The position numbers and the translations under genes are program-made. A DNA stretch of 61,817 nucleotides from an uncultured SAR86 cluster bacterium (GTDB lineage: Bacteria > Pseudomonadota > Gammaproteobacteria > Magnimaribacterales > D2472): assembly GCA_902623685.1 (NCBI GenBank), contig CACNUQ010000006.1, positions 1 through 61,817 on the forward strand. Reading direction: 5' to 3'. Numbering within the stretch: the first letter of the stretch is position 1; the number at the start of each line of letters is the position of its first letter. The notes beneath the pieces are model-generated. The model saw only the letters and a list, made by a program, of their open reading frames with translations, had not been told where the DNA came from and did not search any database. Shown here piece after piece: positions 22,157 to 33,874 of this stretch.

Positions 22157-22254
22157 TTTTACAATCCTCCCTACAAAATGTATAACATTTCTTTTAGAGC
22201 TTCATTTGTAATTTGTTAGACTGTATCTTTATTTTAAACTTATGTGCAAAAAAA

Positions 22255-24423
22255 ATGTCAGATAATTACATGCAAATCGGATCCTTGTCAGTTTCACGAG
22301 ATTTGGAAACATTTCTTAGATCAGAAGTTTTGCCTGGTCTAAATATAACTGAGGATCATTTTTGGAGTAGCTTTGAGGACATTGTTTATAAATTTAGCCC
22401 TAAAAATAAAGTATTGCTGGAAATCAGAGAGTCAATGCAAAAGCAAATTGATTCTTGGCATTTAGATAATCCCGGTGACGAAAAAAACCTATCTAAATAC
22501 AAAGATTTTTTAAAAGAAATAGGTTACTTATTAGAAGAGAAAGAACCATTTAGGATCACAACTGAAAATGTTGATCCAGAGATTGCATTTATTGCAGGAC
22601 CTCAATTAGTTGTTCCAGTTATGAATGCAAGATTTGCTTTAAACGCCGCCAATGCTCGATGGGGAAGTCTCTATGATGCTTTGTATGGTACTGATATGAT
22701 CTCAGAGGATAATGGTGCGTCAAGAGCAGGTGCGTACAATCCAGTTCGTGGAGAAAAAGTTATAGAATTTGCAAAGAATTTTTTGGATGAAAATTTTTCA
22801 TTAAATGATGCTAGTTTTTCTGATGTAATTTCTTTTTCAATACAGCATGGTCAGTTAGAGTTCGGGTTAGAGAATGGACAAACTGCAACTCTTAATGACA
22901 GTGATCAATTTCAAGGTTTTCAAGGCTCACCAAATCTTCCTTCTAGTATCTTGTTAAAAAACAATAACCTCCATGCTGAAATTCAAATTGATCTTGAGCA
23001 TTCTGTGGGCGCCACTGATCCCGCTGGAATCAAGGATGTTTTATTAGAATCTGCAGTTACGACGATTCAAGACTGCGAGGATTCTGTTGCGGCGGTTGAT
23101 GGAGAAGATAAAGTTACTGTTTATAGAAATTGGCTTGGCTTAATGAAAGGAGACCTTCAGGAAACATTTATAAAAGGAGGAAGTGAAATGACTCGTTCTC
23201 TTAATCCTGATAGAGATTACATTGCACCAGATGGTTCCGGCTTTAAATTGCCAGGCAGAAGCCTCATGCTTGTAAGAAATGTTGGACATCTCATGACTAA
23301 TCCAGCAATTCTTGATAAGGATGGTAATGAGGTGCCTGAGGGAATAATGGATGCAATGTTCACAATTTGTATTGCAATGCATGATATTAATGGTAAGGGA
23401 GAGATAAAAAATTCTAGGACTGGCAGCATTTATATCGTGAAACCAAAAATGCATGGACCTGATGAAGTGCAGTTTACTTGTGATTTATTTTCAGCAGTTG
23501 AAAAAGCCTTAAATCTTGATCAGTTGACAGTCAAAGTAGGGATCATGGATGAAGAAAGAAGAACCACTGTAAATCTTAAAGAATGTATTCGAGTTGCTAA
23601 GGAAAGGATAATTTTTATTAACACTGGATTTTTAGATAGGACTGGAGATGAAATTCATACCAGCATGGAGGCTGGTCCTATGATTCCTAAGGCAGACATG
23701 AAACAGCAGCCTTGGATTCTTGCTTATGAAGACTGGAATGTTGATTCAGGTCTTGAAACTGGATTTAAAGGCAACGCACAAATTGGTAAAGGCATGTGGC
23801 CAATGCCTGACGAAATGTTAAACATGTATGCAACCAAAATCATGCATCCAGAATCTGGAGCAAACTGTGCATGGGTACCATCACCTACTGGCGCCACTCT
23901 CCATGCAATGCATTATCATCAAATCTTAGTTTCTAATAGACAGCAAAGTATCCTTGAGCGACCTAAGGCCAGTATTGATGATATTCTCACCATTCCATTA
24001 ATGGAAAATCCAGAAGAACTATCTGCTGAAGATATTCAAAAAGAATTAGATAATAATGCTCAAGGTATTCTTGGTTATGTTGTTAGATGGATTGATCAAG
24101 GAGTAGGTTGTTCTAAGGTCCCTGATATTAACAACGTTGGGCTTATGGAGGATAGAGCTACATGTAGAATCTCTAGCCAACATATTGCAAATTGGTTGCA
24201 TCATTCTATTTGTTCCAAAGATCAAGTTCTCGATACCATGAAACGAATGGCTCTCGTTGTTGATCAGCAGAATTCTGGGGATCCGTCATATCTACCAATG
24301 GGCCCATCATATGATGGCATTGCCTTCAAAGCGGCATGTAATCTAGCTATAGAGGGAAGAATTCAGCCCAGCGGTTATACCGAACCAATATTGCACGAAA
24401 TGAGGTTAAAATTTAAAGCTTAA
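22255..24423 (+). CDS. glcB: Malate synthase G
   Basis: Condenses glyoxylate with acetyl-CoA to malate. I start at ATG 22255 (722 residues, normal for isoform G); ATG 22213 would add 14 residues. Seen: [33 protein letters not shown] segments near 120-150 with the G-type insertion, [13 protein letters not shown]-like [13 protein letters not shown] near 275 (Mg-binding region), [16 protein letters not shown]-like [19 protein letters not shown] near 435, [20 protein letters not shown] near 455, GKGMW, and [17 protein letters not shown] near 545. It shares the operon with DUF1330 (TAATG overlap) and possibly the GH2 gene. No isocitrate lyase is in the window, so glyoxylate may come from glycolate or purine breakdown. 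Confidence 0.97.
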
Positions 24424-24707
24424 TGAAAGCATATTGGATCACAAGATGTCACGTACATAATTCAGCTGAGTATGATGAATATATTAAGCTTGCAGGACCT
24501 GCTATCAATCAATATGGTGGTACCTTCCTAGTTCGTGGGGGCGATCAAATTGAATTAGAAGGAGGTCCATTTGAGAGGACTGTTCTAGTTGAGTTTAATT
24601 CGATGCATGAAGCCAAAGTATGTTATGAATCAAAGGAGTATCAAGAGGCTTTAAAGCACTCAGTAAATTCCTCCAATCGGCACGTTGTTTTAGTTGAAGG
24701 ATTGTGA
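24423..24707 (+). CDS. DUF1330 domain protein
   Basis: 94 residues. Pattern AYWITRCHVHNSAEYDEYIKLA, AINQYGGTFLVRGG, EGGPFERTVLVEF and EAKVCYESKEYQEALKH is the DUF1330 dimeric alpha+beta barrel family. It overlaps the malate synthase stop by TAATG, so translation is coupled. Biochemical function is unsettled in the family; the coupling suggests a link to glyoxylate metabolism, but that is inference. Confidence 0.88.
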   Translation: MKAYWITRCHVHNSAEYDEYIKLAGPAINQYGGTFLVRGGDQIELEGGPFERTVLVEFNSMHEAKVCYESKEYQEALKHSVNSSNRHVVLVEGL

Positions 24708-24713
24708 TGAGTC

Positions 24714-26762
24714 ATGAAGCTCCCTACAAATAAAAATATCATCAAAATCCTTTTATTTCTTACAGTTTTTTGGACCGTAAATGTATCTTCAGAGGAATTA
24801 TCAGATGCCGAAAGTTTTTTTAGTCGCGAGGCTCCAGCCTATCCAATAGCTGATAAGTTGCTTGGGTGGATTGATTCAAGAAACATTACTTCCTTGAATG
24901 GAGAGTGGACTTACATAATTGATCCAATGAGTAATGGTTTGCCAGAATCCTCTTTCTTTGGTGGATTTCCAAAAAATAAAACTCAAAAAACTGGAATGGA
25001 GTTAATCGAATACAATTTTGAGGATGCAGAAAAAATTCAAATTCCAGGAGCCTGGAATGCTCAAAATGAAAAATTATTATTTTACAGAGGCCCAGTTTGG
25101 CTTTTTAAAAAATTTAATCATTCATCAAAACAAAATGTTTTAACCCATTTGTATATTGAAGGCAGTAACTTTACAACAAAGGTATTTTTGAATGGGTCTG
25201 TTGTAGGTGAATTTAAAGGTGGTTATGTTCCATTTAACTTCGATATTTCCCAGTTTCTTAATGATGGTGAGAACATCTTGTTGATCCAAACAGACAATAC
25301 CCTAAATGAATCCACTGTTCCCACTCACAAGACAGATTGGTGGCCATGGGGAGGTATTGTTGGTGATGTATATCTTGTTGAGACTCCAAATGATTATATT
25401 AGAAATGCATATTTACAACTTAACCCAGATAATTTTTCTGAAGCTGTCTTTAAATTACAAATGGCAACTAAATCATCTCGGCAAAAAGTAATTTTGGAGA
25501 TTCCTGAGCTTAATTACAAAGAAGAATTTGGGACAGATTCTTCAGGGTTTATTCAAAAAAATATTACTATTTCTCCAGAACTTTGGTCGCCCTCAAATCC
25601 CAAGCTCTATAAGGTAATTATTTCATCACAAAATGAATCAATATCCGATGAAATAGGTTTTCGTTCCATTAAAACAAAGGGTCAAAAGATATATTTAAAT
25701 AATAATGAGATAAAGTTTAAGGGAATTGCTATGCACTCTGAGCCTATCGGTGCGCCAGGACCTGCATACTCCAAAGAGCATTTTAAAAAATTGCTTGCCA
25801 CAGCTGCAGATTTAAATATTAACTTTGTCAGAGCTGCGCATTATCCGTATACCCGTCATTTATCTAAGGTTGCGGATCAAATCGGATTAATGGTTTGGGA
25901 AGAGATTCCTGTGTATTGGAATATTGATTGGCAAAATCCTGATACTTTGAAGATAGCAAAAGATCAGATTAATAGATTGGTTCAAAGAGACCAAAATCGG
26001 GCATCTGTTGTAGTTTGGTCAGTAGCAAATGAAACTCCTTTTTCAATTCCAAGAATGAAATTTTTAGATGCATTATTATCTGAAATCAATCTAAATGATT
26101 CATCTCGTTTAACCACGGCTGCACTTCTTTCTGGAAATGAAGAGCAATTTAGATCCTTGATAATTGTTTTGGCATTACAGGGCACTAAATCTCAATGGGT
26201 TAATCAAACTGAAAAAATGATATTTAACTCAATTTTAGATAAGGCAAACATATCTGCTGATAAAGAGCTAACTTTTTCTATTTCAATTGATGATCCTCTT
26301 GCTAAAAATGTTGATTTGATTTCTTACAATGAGTACTTTGGTTGGTATTACGTCACATTTTTTACTGAGCAAATGATGATTCCAGAGGGAACTCTAAGAA
26401 GATTAATGTTTGAGATTATGCCAGAGATAAAAATTAGTTCTTCATTTGATAAACCAATTCATATCTCAGAATTTGGTGCTGGTGCTAAATATGGAAATCA
26501 CACTGATGAAATATGGTCAGAAGGGTATCAAGCTAAGGTATATGCAGGCCAATTAGAAATGCTTTCTAGAAATCCTCAGGTTCAAGGAATTAGCCCCTGG
26601 ATTCTCAAGGATTTTAGAGCGATGTTAAGACCACTGCCTGGCATTCAAGATTTTTATAATAGAAAGGGCTTGATTGATGAGAATGGAAATAGGAAAGAAG
26701 CGTTCAAAATTTTATCTGATTTTTACAAAAATCAATGGGACCAACAAATCATAAAAAATTAA
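24714..26762 (+). CDS. Secreted glycoside hydrolase family 2 protein
   Basis: 682 residues with an N-terminal signal segment (IIKILLFLTVFWTVNVSS). Domain order: sugar-binding jelly roll with SLNGEWTYIIDP near 60, FYRGPVWLFKKF near 123 and VFLNGSVVGEFKGGYVPFNFDIS near 160; an immunoglobulin-like domain; then a TIM barrel from about 325 (IYLNNNEIKFKGIAMHSE). The acid/base Glu is in WSVANETP and the nucleophile Glu in HISEFGAG. The order resembles beta-glucuronidase/beta-galactosidase members; substrate unproven. It follows DUF1330 by six bases and is the first gene of the sugar-degrading region. Confidence 0.92.
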   Translation: MKLPTNKNIIKILLFLTVFWTVNVSSEELSDAESFFSREAPAYPIADKLLGWIDSRNITSLNGEWTYIIDPMSNGLPESSFFGGFPKNKTQKTGMELIEYNFEDAEKIQIPGAWNAQNEKLLFYRGPVWLFKKFNHSSKQNVLTHLYIEGSNFTTKVFLNGSVVGEFKGGYVPFNFDISQFLNDGENILLIQTDNTLNESTVPTHKTDWWPWGGIVGDVYLVETPNDYIRNAYLQLNPDNFSEAVFKLQMATKSSRQKVILEIPELNYKEEFGTDSSGFIQKNITISPELWSPSNPKLYKVIISSQNESISDEIGFRSIKTKGQKIYLNNNEIKFKGIAMHSEPIGAPGPAYSKEHFKKLLATAADLNINFVRAAHYPYTRHLSKVADQIGLMVWEEIPVYWNIDWQNPDTLKIAKDQINRLVQRDQNRASVVVWSVANETPFSIPRMKFLDALLSEINLNDSSRLTTAALLSGNEEQFRSLIIVLALQGTKSQWVNQTEKMIFNSILDKANISADKELTFSISIDDPLAKNVDLISYNEYFGWYYVTFFTEQMMIPEGTLRRLMFEIMPEIKISSSFDKPIHISEFGAGAKYGNHTDEIWSEGYQAKVYAGQLEMLSRNPQVQGISPWILKDFRAMLRPLPGIQDFYNRKGLIDENGNRKEAFKILSDFYKNQWDQQIIKN

Positions 26763-26785
26763 TTATATTTTTTTAAAAAAAAGTG

Positions 26786-26813
26786 TTGACACTTTTTCCT
26801 AATCGCGTATATT
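26786..26813 (+). promoter_or_regulatory. Strong sigma-70 promoter of ncRNA copy 1
   Basis: Perfect -35 TTGACA, 16-base spacer, -10 TATATT. Start of transcription is expected near 26820. One of the best promoter matches in the window. Confidence 0.85.
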
Positions 26814-26819
26814 TAATAG

Positions 26820-27037
26820 ACCAACTCGGACTGACCTACAAACAACTGCAGACGGGAGTAGGAGAGAAAGAGAAGGAAGAGACGAAGGGTGAAAGCGATA
26901 CTAAGAGTCGGCGATAAAAAAGAGCTTAGTAACCCACCAAGGAGGAGAGAGAAGGCCTCTAAGGAGCTAAAGAGATTCTCACTTTAGACCCCTTCCAATC
27001 TCGATTGAAAAGACAGAGCTTAGCTCTGTTTTTTTTT
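26820..27037 (+). ncRNA. Predicted ~218-nt structured non-coding RNA, copy 1
   Basis: The region between promoter and terminator contains no ATG on the plus strand and is purine-rich and more GC-rich than its surroundings. Seen: a 5' stem CCTAC/GTAGG (26835-26862), a short GAAA-loop hairpin near 26889-26896, an ACT/AGT hairpin near 26900, a 6-bp stem CTAAAG/CTTTAG (26967-26987) and the terminator hairpin. GGA occurs seven times. AAGGAGG at 26939-26945 is a perfect Shine-Dalgarno sequence not followed by a start codon. I do not recognise it as 6S, RNase P, tmRNA, SRP or a known riboswitch. CsrB/RsmZ-like protein titration or a marine-specific RNA family are possibilities. Confidence 0.8.
27013..27037 (+). 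terminator. Intrinsic terminator of ncRNA copy 1
   Basis: Seven-bp perfect stem ACAGAGC/GCTCTGT with TTA loop followed by nine T. It separates the RNA from the downstream patatin gene by about 40 bases. Confidence 0.93.
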
Positions 27038-27077
27038 GCTTATAATTTATTTTCTAGTTATATCTTATGCAGCAATT

Positions 27078-27908
27078 ATGAAAGCATTAATCGTTGAGGG
27101 TGGAGGAAGCCGAGGAGTTTTTTCATTTGGGGTGACTGACACATTCATAAAAGCTTCGTACAATCCATTTTCAATTCATTTGGGTGTTTCTAATGGAGCA
27201 GTCGTTCAGCTTTGGTATCTATTGAAAGTAGCAGATTATAATTTAGATAAGATGTTATTTTCTGCTTCAAAAAAGTACGTAACATACTCAAATATATTTT
27301 TTAATAAAAGTATTATGAATTTTGAAAGACTCTATCATGATGCTCAAAAAGTTCATCCAATTGATTTTGACCGTCTTCAAGAAAATCTAAAAGATAAGAA
27401 ATTCCTTATTGTTGTATCTGATGCAAAAACAGGTGCTCCTGAGTATATTGAGTTATCAAGAGACGATTATATTAATGAAATGCTTGCAACCGGAGCATTG
27501 CCAGTGCTGATGAAAGATCCAATTAGCTTGAAAGGAAGAAGAAAGTTTGATGGAGGTATCACTGATCCAATTCCTGTTAAAAAAGCTTACGAAATGGGGG
27601 CCAGGGAAATTGTAATCATAAGAACATATGAACAAGATTTTGTTAGAAAAATTAAACTAGAAAATCATATTGCTGCATTAGCTACAAAGAACTATCCAAA
27701 AATTTCTCAAGCATTAAAAACGAATGCAGTAATCTATAATTCTGCACTAGAGTTTATTAATAATCCTCCAATTGATTGTAGAATTATTCAAATTTGTCCT
27801 CCAAAAAGACTTAAAACAAAACGAGCAACAATTGATCATAATACTCTAAAAGCAGACTATAAAATTGGAGTAAATGAAGGGTCAAATTATTTAAAAAATC
27901 TATCTTAA
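27078..27908 (+). CDS. Patatin-like phospholipase (YjjU-type)
   Basis: I start at ATG 27078 (276 residues); the frame's extra 14 residues from 27036 are atypical and partly overlap the ncRNA terminator. Seen: oxyanion loop LIVEGGGSRGVFSFGV near residue 4, nucleophile elbow HLGVSNGAVVQLW near 37 (GxSxG), ATGALPVLM near 143, and the dyad Asp in KFDGGITDPIPVKKAYEMG near 165, then IVIIRTYEQD. This resembles E. coli YjjU, a cytoplasmic lipid acyl hydrolase family of unknown physiological substrate. The gene is bracketed by the two 259-bp RNA units and has no evident operon partner. Confidence 0.9.
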   Translation: MKALIVEGGGSRGVFSFGVTDTFIKASYNPFSIHLGVSNGAVVQLWYLLKVADYNLDKMLFSASKKYVTYSNIFFNKSIMNFERLYHDAQKVHPIDFDRLQENLKDKKFLIVVSDAKTGAPEYIELSRDDYINEMLATGALPVLMKDPISLKGRRKFDGGITDPIPVKKAYEMGAREIVIIRTYEQDFVRKIKLENHIAALATKNYPKISQALKTNAVIYNSALEFINNPPIDCRIIQICPPKRLKTKRATIDHNTLKADYKIGVNEGSNYLKNLS

Positions 27909-27962
27909 GTTATTGTTTTAGAGTCTTTTTTTTAAAAACTTAATTTTTTTTAATCATAGGTG

Positions 27963-27990
27963 TTGACACTTTTTCCTAATCGCGTATATT
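27963..27990 (+). promoter_or_regulatory. Strong sigma-70 promoter of ncRNA copy 2
   Basis: TTGACA, 16 bases, TATATT, identical to copy 1. Confidence 0.85.
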
Positions 27991-27996
27991 TAATAG

Positions 27997-28214
27997 ACCA
28001 ACTCGGACTGACCTACAACCAACTGCAGACGGGAGTAGGAGAGAAAGAGGAGGAAGAGACGAAGGGCGAAAGCGTTATTAAGAGTCGACGATAAAAAAGA
28101 GCTTAGTAACCCACCAAGGAGGAGAGAGAAGGCCTCTAAGGAGCTAAAGAGATTCTCACTTTAGACCCCTTCCAATCTCGATTGAAAAGACAGAGCTTAG
28201 CTCTGTTTTTTTTT
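27997..28214 (+). ncRNA. Predicted ~218-nt structured non-coding RNA, copy 2
   Basis: Same layout as copy 1. The substitutions tend to keep the local hairpins: the GAAA-loop stem has a C-G closing pair here against U-G in copy 1, and the ACT/AGT hairpin becomes ATT/AGT (G-U). A seventh-to-eighth GGA is gained by the A-to-G change matching 26873. The only frame with a GTG in copy 1 loses that start here (GCG), which argues against a coding role. Terminated before the symporter gene. Confidence 0.8.
28190..28214 (+). terminator. Intrinsic terminator of ncRNA copy 2
   Basis: Same 7-bp ACAGAGC/GCTCTGT stem, TTA loop and nine T as copy 1. Confidence 0.93.
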
Positions 28215-28279
28215 GCTTTCAATTAATTTTATTTCAACGATAATAACTTCTTAAATCATCTCGGGGGGATATTCAATAA

Positions 28280-29845
28280 ATGCTTTTTAATGATTTAGAT
28301 ATTTTTATTGTTGTAATTTATTGTGTTGGAATCATAGCTATTGCTCAATTCGTTTCTAAGTCTAAACAGGGTCATGAGAAAACTGCAGAGGATTATTTTT
28401 TAGCAGGCAGATCACTTCCTTGGTGGGCAATCGGAGCCTCTTTGATTGCTGCTAATATTTCTGCAGAACAAATTATCGGCATGTCAGGGCAGGGATTTGT
28501 TGTTGGGATGGCAATAGCCACTTATGAGCTTACAGCGGCGATTGCATTAATTGTGATGGCAAAATATTTTTTACCACTTTTTTTAGAGAAGAAAATTTAT
28601 ACTATGCCTCAATTTCTTGAGCATCGATTTGATAATAGGGTTAGTCTCGTGTTGTCTTTCTTTTGGCTAGCTGTCTACGTATTCATTAATCTAACTAGTG
28701 TTTTATGGCTGGGATCTTTAGCAATAAACTCGTTAACAGGCCTGGATCTATTTTATGGATTAGTGCTTTTAGCAACACTATCTTTGACATATTCATTATG
28801 GGGTGGACTTAAAGCTGTGGCTATGACAGATATCATTCAAGTGATTCTATTAATTCTTGGTGGTCTATCTGTCTCTTATATAGCTTTGAATCAAATTTCA
28901 GATGGTGCAGGAGTATTTATTGGATTGAGCCAAGTTTATCAATCTCTTCCTGAAAAATTTGATATGATTTTATCTCTTGATCATCCTGCATATAAAGATC
29001 TTCCTGGTGTATGGGTTTTGATTGGAGGTTTATGGATAGCCCATTTTGCATACTGGGGATTTAATCAATACATTACTCAAAGAGCTCTGGGTGCTAAATC
29101 TTTACCAGAGGCCCAAAAGGGAGTTATGTTTGCTGCTTATTTGAAGCTCTTGATGCCATTTGTTGTTGTTCTTCCAGGGATTTGTGCTGCAATTATTTAT
29201 CCTGGACTTGAAAAGTCTGATCAAGCATATCCAATGATGATGGCATTACTTCCACACGGTCTTTTGGGGCTAACTTTTGCAGCTCTTGTTGCCGCAATTG
29301 TTTCCTCACTCGCATCAATGACTAATAGCATAAGTACAATTTTTACAATGGATATTTATAGAAGTTTTGCAAAATCAAAACCATCTCAACAAAGATTAGT
29401 CACAGTTGGAAGGAATATTGCCTGGATTGCATTAGTTATTGCTGTCATTTGTGCACAGCCACTACTTGGAAGCATGGAGTCTGCATTTCAATACATACAA
29501 AATTTTACTGGATTTTTCACACCGGGAATTTTAGTAATATTTTTAGTTGCTCTATTTTGGAAAAAAGCCACAACTCTTAGTGTTTTAGTTGCAGCAATCA
29601 TGTCTTTAATTTTATCTTTGTTAATTTTTCTTGTTTTTCCAGAATATCCTTTTATTCATAGAATGGGGGTCGTATTTCTAGTTTCAGGCCTTGGATGTTA
29701 CTTTACTGCATTATTTCAAGGATATTCTAATCAACCCAAAGCAATTGATTTAGTCAATATAAATTTTAAAACAGAATTTTCATTTAATCTAAATGCCATA
29801 ATTATCTGTTTGATTTTATTCATCACTTATTTTTTACTGTGGTAA
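28280..29845 (+). CDS. Sodium:solute symporter (SSS family), sugar type
   Basis: 521 residues with about 14 hydrophobic segments. Seen: AEDYFLAGRSLPWWAIGASLIAANISAEQIIG segments near 36-66, the SSS signature region GLLGLTFAALVAAIVSSLASMTNSISTIFTMD segments near 328-355 with conserved Ser/Thr of the Na2 site, and GFFTPGI near 412. It resembles SglT/SGLT-type Na+/glucose or galactose symporters, fitting its place directly before glucokinase, whose ATG overlaps its stop (TAATG). GGGGGGAT precedes the start. It begins the symporter-glk-pgl-GH3 operon. Confidence 0.92.
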   Translation: MLFNDLDIFIVVIYCVGIIAIAQFVSKSKQGHEKTAEDYFLAGRSLPWWAIGASLIAANISAEQIIGMSGQGFVVGMAIATYELTAAIALIVMAKYFLPLFLEKKIYTMPQFLEHRFDNRVSLVLSFFWLAVYVFINLTSVLWLGSLAINSLTGLDLFYGLVLLATLSLTYSLWGGLKAVAMTDIIQVILLILGGLSVSYIALNQISDGAGVFIGLSQVYQSLPEKFDMILSLDHPAYKDLPGVWVLIGGLWIAHFAYWGFNQYITQRALGAKSLPEAQKGVMFAAYLKLLMPFVVVLPGICAAIIYPGLEKSDQAYPMMMALLPHGLLGLTFAALVAAIVSSLASMTNSISTIFTMDIYRSFAKSKPSQQRLVTVGRNIAWIALVIAVICAQPLLGSMESAFQYIQNFTGFFTPGILVIFLVALFWKKATTLSVLVAAIMSLILSLLIFLVFPEYPFIHRMGVVFLVSGLGCYFTALFQGYSNQPKAIDLVNINFKTEFSFNLNAIIICLILFITYFLLW

Positions 29846-30783
29846 TGAATTCACAAGACAGTTTTTCTGATAAAAAAGTCTTACTTATTGATATAGGTGG
29901 AACCAATATTAGAATAGCTACAGCTGATATTGGGAGTAATGAGATAAATAATGCTTCTAAGCAAAATTTAGATTGTTTAGATTCATTTGATGAGATTATT
30001 CAAAACCTTTTAAGTAAATATCAAAATATAAAACATATAGTTTTTTCTGTTGCTGGTCCTAAGGTGCATCAATCTATATCAATGACAAATAGGGATTTTG
30101 AAATAGATGAAAAGATTATATTGAAAAAATTTGATTTAGATTCTTGTCATATTCTTAATGATTGGGAATCCATTGGCCATGGGCTATCTCTTTTTAACAC
30201 TAACGAAATGACCTTCATAAATAAATATGATGGATTTAATCAGACATCATTGGTTATTGGTCCAGGTACAGGTCTTGGGGCCGCTCTAGTTATTGAAAAT
30301 AAAATTGTACTTCCTACAGAGATTGGAAATTGCTTATTAACTCTTCCAAAATTATTTGAAGATTTTGAACCCGCAGATATTAAAAAATTTAATATTATTG
30401 AAAGTATTTTATCTGGAGGTGGGCTTAAGAAAATATATGAAATTTTCTCTAATCAAGAAAAGTCATCTGAAGAAATAGTATCAAGCTTTAATAATGACGA
30501 ATTCTCACAAAAAGCTATAAATTTCTTTCTTAATTCATTTTCTCAAATATTATCTGAACTTGCCTTAGCCTATATGCCTGGAAATGGAATATTCATCGCC
30601 GGAGGTTTAATGCGTTCAATTCGTCAATTTATAGATAATGAGATTTTCATGAAAAATTTTTTGATCAACAGAAAATCAATACATGCAAATATTTTGTCAC
30701 AAATGCCAATAGCTATTATCAATCAAGAAATGACTTGTTTGCATGGATGTTTAAATTTCATTAATAAAATTAACAAAAGATAA
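29845..30783 (+). CDS. glk: Glucokinase
   Basis: Phosphorylates glucose to glucose 6-phosphate with ATP. Start ATG 29845 (312 residues), overlapping the symporter stop; a GTG at 29839 is possible. Seen: LLIDIGGTNIRIATAD near 14 (phosphate 1), VFSVAGPK near 70, ILNDWESIGHGL near 107 with the catalytic Asp, VIGPGTGLGAALV near 139, TEIGNCLL near 160, and GIFIAGGLMRSI near 250. This is the E. coli-type Glk branch rather than the ROK repressor-kinase branch. Confidence 0.93.
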   Translation: MNSQDSFSDKKVLLIDIGGTNIRIATADIGSNEINNASKQNLDCLDSFDEIIQNLLSKYQNIKHIVFSVAGPKVHQSISMTNRDFEIDEKIILKKFDLDSCHILNDWESIGHGLSLFNTNEMTFINKYDGFNQTSLVIGPGTGLGAALVIENKIVLPTEIGNCLLTLPKLFEDFEPADIKKFNIIESILSGGGLKKIYEIFSNQEKSSEEIVSSFNNDEFSQKAINFFLNSFSQILSELALAYMPGNGIFIAGGLMRSIRQFIDNEIFMKNFLINRKSIHANILSQMPIAIINQEMTCLHGCLNFINKINKR

Positions 30784-30790
30784 GTAAAAA

Positions 30791-31429
30791 TTGAATAATT
30801 CTTCTTCAGAAAAGATATCTAAATCAATCACGAAAACATTAGATAAAGCGATTGCACTGAATGGAAAAGCAACACTAGTTGTATGTGGTGGAAATAGTCC
30901 TTTATCAATTTATAAAAAACTAAGTCGTGCTGATTTAGACTGGAATAAAGTATCTATCTATTTGGGGGATGATAGATTACTACCCTCAAATCATATTGAT
31001 TCAAATGAAAATCTTTTAAGGAAAAATCTTTTAATAAATAATGCTAAGTTGGCTAAATTCTGTCCTTTAGTTCAGCCAAGAATTAACATTAACGATATAA
31101 CACTTCCCTTTGATATAGTTTTACTCGGATTAGGTAATGATGGCCATTTTGCATCACTTTTCCCTGAGCAAGTTAAACTAAGCAGTGCCTTAAGCATTGA
31201 TGCTGATCCTGATTTTATATGTTCAGAAATTCCCCTAGGATCCCCAAGCTATAAAAGAATTTCAATGAATCTCGCATGCCTTCTCAACACAAAACGCTGT
31301 ATCTTGTTAGTAACAAATTCTGAGAAAAGATTGGTTGTTGAAAAAGCATCCACAAACAATAAAATGCCATTATATTTTCTTATAAATCAAGATAAGACAA
31401 AACTCGAATTTTCAGATATAGATTTTTAA
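30791..31429 (+). CDS. pgl: 6-phosphogluconolactonase
   Basis: Hydrolyses 6-phosphogluconolactone in the oxidative pentose phosphate/Entner-Doudoroff route. 212 residues from a TTG start at 30791; I see no ATG that keeps the N-terminal strand. Seen: ATLVVCGGNSPLSIYKKL near 28, VSIYLGDDRLLPSNHIDSN segments near 57, ILLGLGNDGHFASLFP-like VLLGLGNDGHFASLFP near 115 with the catalytic His, and RISMNLACLL near 155. Zwf and Edd/Eda are not in the window. Confidence 0.92.
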   Translation: MNNSSSEKISKSITKTLDKAIALNGKATLVVCGGNSPLSIYKKLSRADLDWNKVSIYLGDDRLLPSNHIDSNENLLRKNLLINNAKLAKFCPLVQPRININDITLPFDIVLLGLGNDGHFASLFPEQVKLSSALSIDADPDFICSEIPLGSPSYKRISMNLACLLNTKRCILLVTNSEKRLVVEKASTNNKMPLYFLINQDKTKLEFSDIDF

Positions 31430-31441
31430 TAAGGAACAAGA

Positions 31442-33874
31442 ATGAAAAAATTTTTTTTGATAATTTTATTTTCAAATATTTCATTATTATCAGCTCAAGT
31501 AGACTGGAGTCGATCAAATGCTTGTGAGTACAAAAATTTTGATAATGATTATCTAATTGAGCAACTAATCAAAGCAATGACGATAGAAGATAAGGTTGGA
31601 CAAGTTATTCAAGGCGACTTGGACTTTGTTACTCCAGCAGATGCAAAAAAATACAGACTTGGATCAGTTTTGAATGGAGGCAACACCTCACCCAATGGAG
31701 ATAAATATAGTACAGCAGAAGATTGGAAGAACTTAAGTAAAGAGTTTTATGAAGCTTCTCCAATCTTTAAAGGCATCCGAGTTCCTATTTTATGGGGAAC
31801 TGATGCAGTTCATGGCCACAATAATGTTATTGGCGCGACATTATTTCCTCACAATATAGGACTTGGTGCAACTCGTAATGAAGAGTTAATTAAAAGTATT
31901 GGTGAGGTAATTGCCTTAGAAGTTTTGTCAACCGGAGTTGCTTGGACATTTGCTCCTACAATTGCAGTTCCTCAAGATGATCGTTGGGGAAGAACGTATG
32001 AAGGGTTTTCTGAGGACTCCATCTTGGTCTCTAAGTTAGGCAAAGCTTTTGTGCTTGGGCTCCAAGGCGAGGGAGATACATTCCTTGACAAAAACCATGT
32101 TATTGCAACCGCAAAGCATTTTATGGGTGATGGAGGTACTTTGAGAGGAGTTGATCAAGGAAACACCGTAATTTCTGAGATTGGGTTACGACAATTACAT
32201 GGATATCCATACTTTGATGCTTTAGATGCTTGTGCTCAAACAGTTATGGCAAGCTTTAATTCCTGGAATGGTCAAAAGCTTCATGGATATAAAGAGTTAT
32301 TAACAGACATCCTTAAGAAAGATATGCAATTTGATGGTTTTGTTGTAGGTGATTGGAATGGCCATGGACAGGTAGATAACTGCTCAAATTCAAAATGTGC
32401 CCAATCATTCAATGCTGGTATTGATATGTTCATGGTTCCAGAGAGCTGGAAAGACCTTTTGATTAATACGATTCAGCAAGTTAAATCCGGTGAAATATCA
32501 GAGATCAGACTCGATGATGCAGTTAGAAGTATTTTAAAGGTTAAATCTAGGCTTGGTTTATTTGATGGAAGAGTCCCGCATGAATTTAAAGAAAATTTTT
32601 TAGGTCACCCAAGGCATATTGCTTTGGCTCGTCAGGCTGTAAGAGAATCCTTGGTTTTGTTGAAAAATAATAATAAATTTTTACCCATAGATCCTAGACA
32701 ACATATTGGAGTTATTGGTCACGCCGCAAACAAAATCTCATCGCAAACAGGTGGCTGGACCATTACTTGGCAAGGAAGAGAAAATTTAAATGAAGATTTT
32801 ATAAATACTAATACTATATATCAGGCTTTAGAGCAGATGGTTTTATTATCAAATGGAACAATAGAGTTTTCTGAAAATGGTAAATTTGAAAAGAATCCAG
32901 ATGTTGTGATTGGCGTATTCGGTGAGGAACCATATGCTGAAATGCTCGGTGATTTAAAAGATGTCTCTTTTGCTCCAACTGACCCAAAATTTTTATCCTT
33001 GCTTGAGTCAATTGATGCTCAGGGTATTCAAATTTTAAGCATCTTTTTGTCAGGCAGACCTTTGGTAGTAAATAAGTACATTAATGCATCTGATGCATTT
33101 ATCGCAGCTTGGTTACCAGGTACTGCTGTAGAAGGAATTGCTGATGTTATATTTAAGAAAAATGATAAAATAAATTATGATTTTTCAGGCAAACTTTCTT
33201 ATTCATGGCCAAAATCTTCTGATCAAGCAGTATTAAATTATTCTGATGCTGAATATGATCCCTTATTTCCATTTGGATTTGGTCTTACATATGAATCAAA
33301 TTTTCAGCTTCAAAAAATTCAAACTGATGAGGTTGTTTCAAATATAGATTTGATAAATGTTTTTTTAGGCGCTGCATCAATCCCCGCAAAAGAGTTTGTT
33401 ATTTCAAATAAAAAACCCGAATTTGTTTTGAAAGATAATTACTTTAGCAATAACGAACAAATTAAAGTTACAAGATTTGATTATCAGCGACAAGACGATG
33501 CAAAAAATATTGTTTTTTCAGGCAGCAAATTGTTACAAGCCTTTGGAATCTCAGCAGAGTTGCCGATCAATCTCTCTGAAATGAGTTCTCCTTTTTATGA
33601 GATTATTATGAGGGTAAATACTTTATCAAATCCACAATTATATTTTAGCGTTGGTTGCGGTAGTAATTGTATTGGGTCTATTGCACTGCCCACAAAATCC
33701 ATGACGAATTGGTCAAAAATTAATATTCCTATTTCATGCCTTGAAAAAGACGGGTTAGACAAATCCAAAATTCAATTAAGAGGACTTTTTTCAAGCAAGG
33801 AAGCTATTAATTTTGATATTAATTCCATTATCATTCGAGATGGAAACGCTACGGGATCGATGTTGAGCTGCTAA
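31442..33874 (+). CDS. Secreted GH3 exo-beta-glucanase
   Basis: 810 residues, signal peptide MKKFFLIILFSNISLLSA. Domain order: GH3 barrel (about 40-390) with MTIEDKVGQVIQGDL, WGTDAVHGHNNVIGATLFPHNIGLGA segments, AKHFMGDGGT near 220 and FDGFVVGDWNGHG near 297, whose Asp is the nucleophile; GH3 C-terminal sandwich (about 400-620); and a C-terminal beta-sandwich ending in Cys. The KHFMGDGGT form and the extra C-terminal domain resemble marine exo-1,3/1,4-beta-glucanases (ExoP type). Likely releases glucose from laminarin- or mixed-linkage-like glucans in the periplasm, feeding the symporter and Glk encoded just upstream. AAGGAA ribosome site. Confidence 0.93.
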   Translation: MKKFFLIILFSNISLLSAQVDWSRSNACEYKNFDNDYLIEQLIKAMTIEDKVGQVIQGDLDFVTPADAKKYRLGSVLNGGNTSPNGDKYSTAEDWKNLSKEFYEASPIFKGIRVPILWGTDAVHGHNNVIGATLFPHNIGLGATRNEELIKSIGEVIALEVLSTGVAWTFAPTIAVPQDDRWGRTYEGFSEDSILVSKLGKAFVLGLQGEGDTFLDKNHVIATAKHFMGDGGTLRGVDQGNTVISEIGLRQLHGYPYFDALDACAQTVMASFNSWNGQKLHGYKELLTDILKKDMQFDGFVVGDWNGHGQVDNCSNSKCAQSFNAGIDMFMVPESWKDLLINTIQQVKSGEISEIRLDDAVRSILKVKSRLGLFDGRVPHEFKENFLGHPRHIALARQAVRESLVLLKNNNKFLPIDPRQHIGVIGHAANKISSQTGGWTITWQGRENLNEDFINTNTIYQALEQMVLLSNGTIEFSENGKFEKNPDVVIGVFGEEPYAEMLGDLKDVSFAPTDPKFLSLLESIDAQGIQILSIFLSGRPLVVNKYINASDAFIAAWLPGTAVEGIADVIFKKNDKINYDFSGKLSYSWPKSSDQAVLNYSDAEYDPLFPFGFGLTYESNFQLQKIQTDEVVSNIDLINVFLGAASIPAKEFVISNKKPEFVLKDNYFSNNEQIKVTRFDYQRQDDAKNIVFSGSKLLQAFGISAELPINLSEMSSPFYEIIMRVNTLSNPQLYFSVGCGSNCIGSIALPTKSMTNWSKINIPISCLEKDGLDKSKIQLRGLFSSKEAINFDINSIIIRDGNATGSMLSC

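Follow-up and report, generated by a model that had tools for sequence, protein, structure and literature searches.

The window, i.e. the whole stretch of 61,817 nucleotides analysed from an uncultured SAR86 cluster bacterium, holds a pair of genes for the small RNA IMES-1, in which the hexamer at the tip of the middle hairpin (loop 2) takes 12 forms in the 135 unique sequences compared and is self-complementary in all of them. The covariation within this hexamer makes it probable that loop 2 is a contact between two IMES-1 molecules, and we infer that IMES-1 could form homodimers or larger assemblies via symmetric kissing loops.

The IMES-1 gene pair of the window

The pair appears as two direct repeats of 259 nt, at positions 26783-27041 (copy 1) and 27960-28218 (copy 2). 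Pairwise alignment of the copies gives six substitutions and no gap over the 259 nt, at repeat positions 60, 91, 108, 116, 119 and 129. Because all six differences fall between positions 60 and 129, the promoter and the final 130 nt are the same in both copies. With a repeat-finding tool the pair stretches to 291 nt at 95%. On the + strand each copy carries the promoter TTGACA-16-TATATT (in copy 1 TTGACA at 26786-26791 and TATATT at 26808-26813, 16 nt apart and with an A/T-rich tract upstream; in copy 2 at 27963-27990), which scores 11/12 of the consensus in both cases, and an intrinsic terminator composed of a 13-pair stem followed by T's (27007-27035 and 28184-28212, + strand). The scan found 14 promoter-like sites vs 5.4 in shuffles, and, counting both strands, 4 terminator-like sites vs 1.1 expected from shuffles. 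The initial annotation had described two repeats with six substitutions and no indels, a near-consensus promoter and an intrinsic terminator in each, and identical promoters and 3' 130 nt; alignment and scans agree with it on all these points.

It had found no named RNA class for the unit, and here the Rfam search corrects it: both copies are IMES-1 (RF02034), with 188.7 and 189.7 bits for a gathering cutoff of 81. The alignment spans the full model (positions 1-191) in both copies, and the score is more than twice the cutoff. A match of AgrB at the repeat (26.3 bits, cutoff 40) was taken as chance. With ends placed from the promoter and the terminator, the RNA would be about 219 nt long, at 26816-27034 for copy 1 (Rfam core 26825-27013) and 27993-28211 for copy 2 (Rfam core 28002-28190), both on the + strand. 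It is nearly certain that each repeat is a complete IMES-1 gene, with a strong-looking sigma-70 promoter, a structured transcript of this length and a Rho-independent terminator. Transcription of IMES-1 from its own promoter is likely. Among the IMES-1 sequences compared, the best promoter-like site reaches at least 9/12 in 89/90 of family f1 (that of the window), 14/28 of f3 and 1/14 of f4, counts which cover 132 of the 135 sequences and have no shuffle control.

Distribution, copy number and gene neighbourhood

The initial annotation had proposed an Rfam search and a check for homologues with covarying stems. Matches to IMES-1 at E<=0.001 occur in 128 of the order's 203 genomes (121 above cutoff), and the helices covary (see below). 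By family, the matches at this threshold are in 84/107 genomes of f1, 4/40 of f2, 25/35 of f3 and 15/21 of f4. The four f2 matches were rejected as IMES-1, being loci of the sister RNA IMES-5. Of the weak f2 matches as a whole, the five best are IMES-5 loci, and eight others that were read resemble coding or chance sequence on visual inspection. Since many genomes are incomplete drafts, the absences of IMES-1 are soft. In a sample of 369 genomes of the class only three match IMES-1, all from the window's own order; the fourth genome of this order in the draw, G006 (f2), gave no IMES-1 match.

A pattern scan of named genomes gave 81 stretches, of which 80 were listed; IMES-1 is present in 75 of these 80, and not in the other five. 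Most of the stretches with IMES-1 are titled SAR86 cluster bacterium. IMES-1 was also seen under the titles Pseudohongiella, Woeseiaceae, Neomarinimicrobiota and Flavobacteriales (L176, L241, L201 and L226 respectively, the last one partial); these records are probably mislabelled or contaminated assemblies. A phage origin was rejected: a search of the phage collection with copy 1 gave no match, and the two contigs in IMG/VR that carry partial IMES-1 sequences, each about 2 kb long, are probably host fragments.

Many genomes have two IMES-1 genes, separated start to start by 315 nt to more than 10 kb, or located on separate contigs. In the window a gene for a patatin-like phospholipase (27078-27908, + strand; PF01734 and DUF6363) lies between the copies. 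In all nine own-genus loci with two copies that were examined, the window's among them, this gene lies between the copies, alone or with further genes. Outside this genus, none of 32 fetched long loci has a patatin gene between or beside IMES-1, and other genes adjoin the RNA there, e.g. malate synthase and its neighbours between the copies in several loci. A general link between IMES-1 and patatin is therefore rejected. Of the functional RNA unit of the initial annotation, a conserved, structured and independently transcribed RNA is well supported, by its Rfam match, its matches across the order and its covarying helices; patatin is not a general part of it. Further genes were noted around the pair: positions 22213-33874 of the window hold genes for malate synthase G, DUF1330, a glycosyl hydrolase of family 2, a sodium-solute symporter, glucokinase, a member of the glucosamine-6-phosphate isomerase/6-phosphogluconolactonase family and a glycosyl hydrolase of family 3, a group that resembles a sugar-use cluster.

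The two copies of a genome are identical in 8 of the 21 pairs compared. In G134 and G141 they are identical and, among the loci compared, the closest copy of any other genome is at 89-90%; the G134 and G141 copies are therefore young or kept alike by recombination. This is not a general rule, as in several pairs, that of the window included, a copy from another genome is closer than the sibling. The window copies are at 98.1% and 97.7% of copies in other genomes and at 97.2% of each other, so their duplication is not brand new.

We give an even chance to the proposal that the two copies reflect a hot spot of duplication or recombination, without functional meaning. The identical pairs speak for it, as do the copy spacing and the intervening genes, which vary between genomes; the age of the window duplication speaks against it. 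In any case a hot spot, which is compatible with self-assembly, would account for the copy number but leave unexplained why the RNA is conserved and covaries.

Two observations on assemblies belong here. In locus L070 (G101:C38, 7836-15899) a segment containing malate synthase occurs in two consecutive copies flanked by three IMES-1 matches, the last one partial and located where the contig ends; this corresponds either to recombination between IMES-1 copies or to an assembly artefact. IMES-1 matches were also seen at contig ends in G041:C4, G133:C5, G060:C31, G052:C80 and G087:C7. These repeats may therefore break assemblies, and the copy number may be underestimated.

Self-complementary loops of IMES-1

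The sequence set derives from 240 nhmmer matches (places often repeated across loci), of which 232 were kept after dropping spans of less than 160 model positions. They correspond to 140 distinct cores, and cores with N or of at most 200 nt were dropped, leaving 135 unique sequences, assigned by sequence signature to f1 (93), f3 (28) and f4 (14). RNAalifold on 67 representatives gives two-sided changes in 18 of 34 predicted pairs, and does not predict the 5' domain. IMES-1 behaves like a structured RNA: in the helix of the middle hairpin 6 of 9 pairs show two-sided changes, with 97.3% of cells paired. Evidence for the 5' helices comes from the Rfam alignment, and our stem-length counts support them partly: in f1 and f4 the outer 5' helix has a stem no longer than in shuffles, in f3 an only mildly longer one. 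In the window, three of the six changes between the copies are in the middle hairpin: an A-A mismatch in copy 1 becomes a U-A pair in copy 2, a C-G pair becomes U-G, and the loop-2 hexamer goes from GUCGGC, self-complementary with G.U (copy 1, 26907-26912, + strand), to the Watson-Crick GUCGAC (copy 2, 28084-28089, + strand). The two hexamers also pair with each other if G.U is allowed.

Seven forms of the loop-2 hexamer are self-complementary by Watson-Crick pairs (GUCGAC, GUUAAC, GUAUAC, GCUAGC, GGUACC, GCCGGC and GCAUGC) and five with G.U (GUCGAU, GUCGGC, GUUGAC, GUGCAU and GUGCGC). The families were counted separately because in the automatic alignments the hexamer of f3/f4 is offset by three columns from that of f1. 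All types are self-complementary in each family (8/8 in f1, 4/4 in f3, 4/4 in f4), for a mean background of 4.2% of hexamer types in f1 (217 windows), 3.6% in f3 (213) and 3.7% in f4 (218). In f3, 26 of the 28 sequences are in register and the other two fit after a shift of one column. Among the aligned f1 windows, only loop 2 and the invariant loop 1 of the 5' domain reach 100%. Other invariant windows are self-complementary, namely TTCGAA in f3, and AGATCT and GAGCTT (with G.U) in f4; having no variation, they say little.

In a tree-based null model keeping the number of changes per position, none of 5000 runs was fully self-complementary in f1, and none of 5000 for all sequences, the latter with f3/f4 hexamers registered by hand from alignment columns and with a tree which omits only the f1-register columns, part of the f3/f4 hexamer having stayed in the tree data. 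The mean fraction of self-complementary tips was 54% for f1 and 17% for all sequences. Ancestral reconstruction gives a few non-complementary intermediates of the hexamer.

Pairs were counted on pieces of 12 or 13 letters cut by hand around the hexamer. All cells are paired, 123/123 in f1 (41 sequences) and 57/57 in f3 and f4 together (19 sequences). The covariation score is 0.393 vs 0.258 in shuffles for f1 and 0.704 vs 0.195 for f3+f4, values reached by none of 500 shuffles in either set. The number of pairs with two-sided changes is not exceptional, as 159/500 shuffles reach it in f1 and 295/500 in f3+f4, and two of the three f1 pairs vary on one side only, through G.U. Slides of +3 and -3 in f1 leave 92.7% and 90.2% of cells paired, without covariation. 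The innermost pair is formed by adjacent nucleotides and occurs as CG, AU, GC, UA and UG. As adjacent nucleotides are unable to pair within one strand, the covariation of loop 2 points to two molecules. Moreover, none of the 135 sequences has a second copy of its own loop-2 hexamer elsewhere in the RNA, so no identical hexamer is available as a partner within the molecule. Loop 2 is also predicted to be exposed: its mean unpaired probability is 0.69, 0.90 and 0.75 in f1, f3 and f4, vs 0.44, 0.45 and 0.43 for all positions.

Loop 1 differs from loop 2 by its near invariance. Its hexamer is CTGCAG in 107 of the 135 sequences and CTCGAG in the other 28, both self-complementary, and an A directly flanks it on each side in all 135. 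In the window it is CUGCAG in both copies (26846-26851 and 28023-28028, + strand). The variation amounts to a single double change of the central pair, between families; for this reason the covariation of loop 1 is weak and, as a signal of contact, suggestive only. Its predicted unpaired probability is 0.61, 0.50 and 0.80 in f1, f3 and f4, the f3 value being hardly above the average (0.45). A closing stem of at least 4 bp is present in 92/93 f1 sequences (48% in shuffles), 7/28 f3 (21%) and 3/14 f4 (23%); the stem is clear in f1 and not in f3 or f4. The retroviral dimerisation initiation site also consists of a six-nt self-complementary loop flanked by purines; IMES-1 resembles it in these features and is an unrelated cellular RNA.

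Exposed loops, A-rich and purine-rich, would suit an antisense RNA which pairs with target mRNAs through its loops, their self-complementarity being secondary. This is improbable, because pairing with targets does not need self-complementarity to be retained while the hexamer changes. A role of the hexamer at DNA level, as a palindrome for binding or cutting rather than as an RNA contact, agrees with the seven forms that are perfect DNA palindromes. We hold it for very improbable: twelve different sequences offer no common recognition site, the five forms that need G.U pair as RNA and are not DNA palindromes, and the site sits in the loop of aligned hairpins.

By its similar length, its strong promoter and terminator and its two copies, which occur in some 6S systems, IMES-1 could be taken for a second or divergent 6S RNA holding RNA polymerase. 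This was rejected as highly unlikely: RF00013 gives no match at the repeats up to E=10, a 6S gene lies elsewhere in the own genome (G000:C1:26502-26677, 58.8 bits vs a cutoff of 46.4), 185 of the order's 203 genomes contain a 6S match at E<=0.001 (in 143 it exceeds the cutoff), and the architecture of IMES-1 is branched whereas 6S is one long hairpin with a central bubble. Lastly, a decoy of the CsrB/RsmY type holding CsrA by its GGA motifs is extremely improbable and was rejected, since GGA and AGGAGA are abundant in the window copies but the distribution of CsrA contradicts it: no CsrA turned up in the own genome (82% complete) or, with the Pfam model, in the 107 f1 and 21 f4 genomes, families which keep IMES-1, and its 63 occurrences among the 203 genomes are all in f2 (34/40) or f3 (29/35).

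Proposed self-assembly and the sister RNA IMES-5

In the proposed assembly, the loop-2 hexamers of two IMES-1 molecules would pair with each other in a symmetric kissing loop, of the kind known from the retroviral dimerisation signal, and loop 1 (CUGCAG or CUCGAG) would give a second contact. With two contacts, dimers bridged twice could form, or else chains and larger assemblies; this second contact, and with it assemblies beyond dimers, is possible. The loops would then pair between molecules in the cell and, as a working guess held more weakly, the assembly might serve as an abundant scaffold or a protein-holding particle. As the loops of the window copies are compatible, both could join one assembly. 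In the own genome (G000) and in G079, the two genomes for which one locus held copies that differ in loop 2, the hexamers are mutually complementary, G.U allowed. The second copy would mainly raise dosage.

OLE, ROOL and GOLLD are described in PMC12286853 as large RNAs and were seen as homo-oligomers by cryo-EM; according to the same text, the symmetric kissing loops of OLE and GOLLD are supported by covariation of adjacent nucleotides. Our argument for loop 2 of IMES-1 is the same as that used there for OLE and GOLLD, and loop 2 presents what characterises homo-oligomers of the OLE/ROOL/GOLLD type, a symmetric contact with intermolecular covariation. IMES-1 would therefore be like these RNAs in its symmetric kissing loops, here deduced from sequence comparison, and differs from them by its length of about 219 nt, outside the range of large ornate RNAs. 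The term IMES is absent from the main text of PMC12286853.

The sister RNA IMES-5 (RF02995) was found in 48 of the 203 genomes, all in f2 and f3. The IMES-1 and IMES-5 models cross-match weakly; on five f2 IMES-5 loci the IMES-1 model gives 31.0 to 35.4 bits. The two RNAs have similar blocks, e.g. GGGTGA and GACCCCTT, and the same loop 1: of the 30 IMES-5 loci fetched, 29 have CTCGAG where it is expected. The counterpart of the middle hairpin is different: in two IMES-5 alignments it is short with a GAAA loop. In several f3 genomes IMES-1 and IMES-5 are about 13-14 kb apart on opposite strands (e.g. G176:C1, 826103 for IMES-1 and 839948 for IMES-5), and this proximity suggests an old duplication. 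We also observed that IMES-5 (48/203) and CsrA (63/203) occur in the same two families, f2 and f3 (G001-G040 and G147-G181; e.g. L083 and L100), neither being found in f1 or f4; this joint distribution may reflect shared loss, with no functional link.

We propose tentatively, as a somewhat doubtful extension, that IMES-1 and IMES-5 form a family of small natural bacterial RNAs which would self-assemble, possibly as chains or particles, via self-complementary loops (two in IMES-1, a single one in IMES-5). In f3 the two RNAs could even co-assemble through their common CUCGAG; such mixed assemblies are speculation.

A search of the open-access literature on IMES-1, its relatives and SAR86 noncoding RNA found no account of covariation in IMES-1 loops, which suggests that these self-complementary, covarying loops are newly reported. 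The analysis also adds to IMES-1 a genomic host, SAR86, and a copy-number pattern. The original reports of 2009 are outside this comparison, so an earlier notice of the loops is possible. IMES-1 is reportedly very abundant in ocean RNA (Weinberg et al. 2009; Shi et al. 2009). To our knowledge it has so far been a name without a mechanism. Its host belongs to one of the commonest bacterial groups of the surface ocean. For such an RNA the covariation of the loops provides a concrete and cheaply testable idea. If this idea is true, IMES-1 would add a small and compact example to the natural RNA-only assemblies, known for the large RNAs described in PMC12286853.
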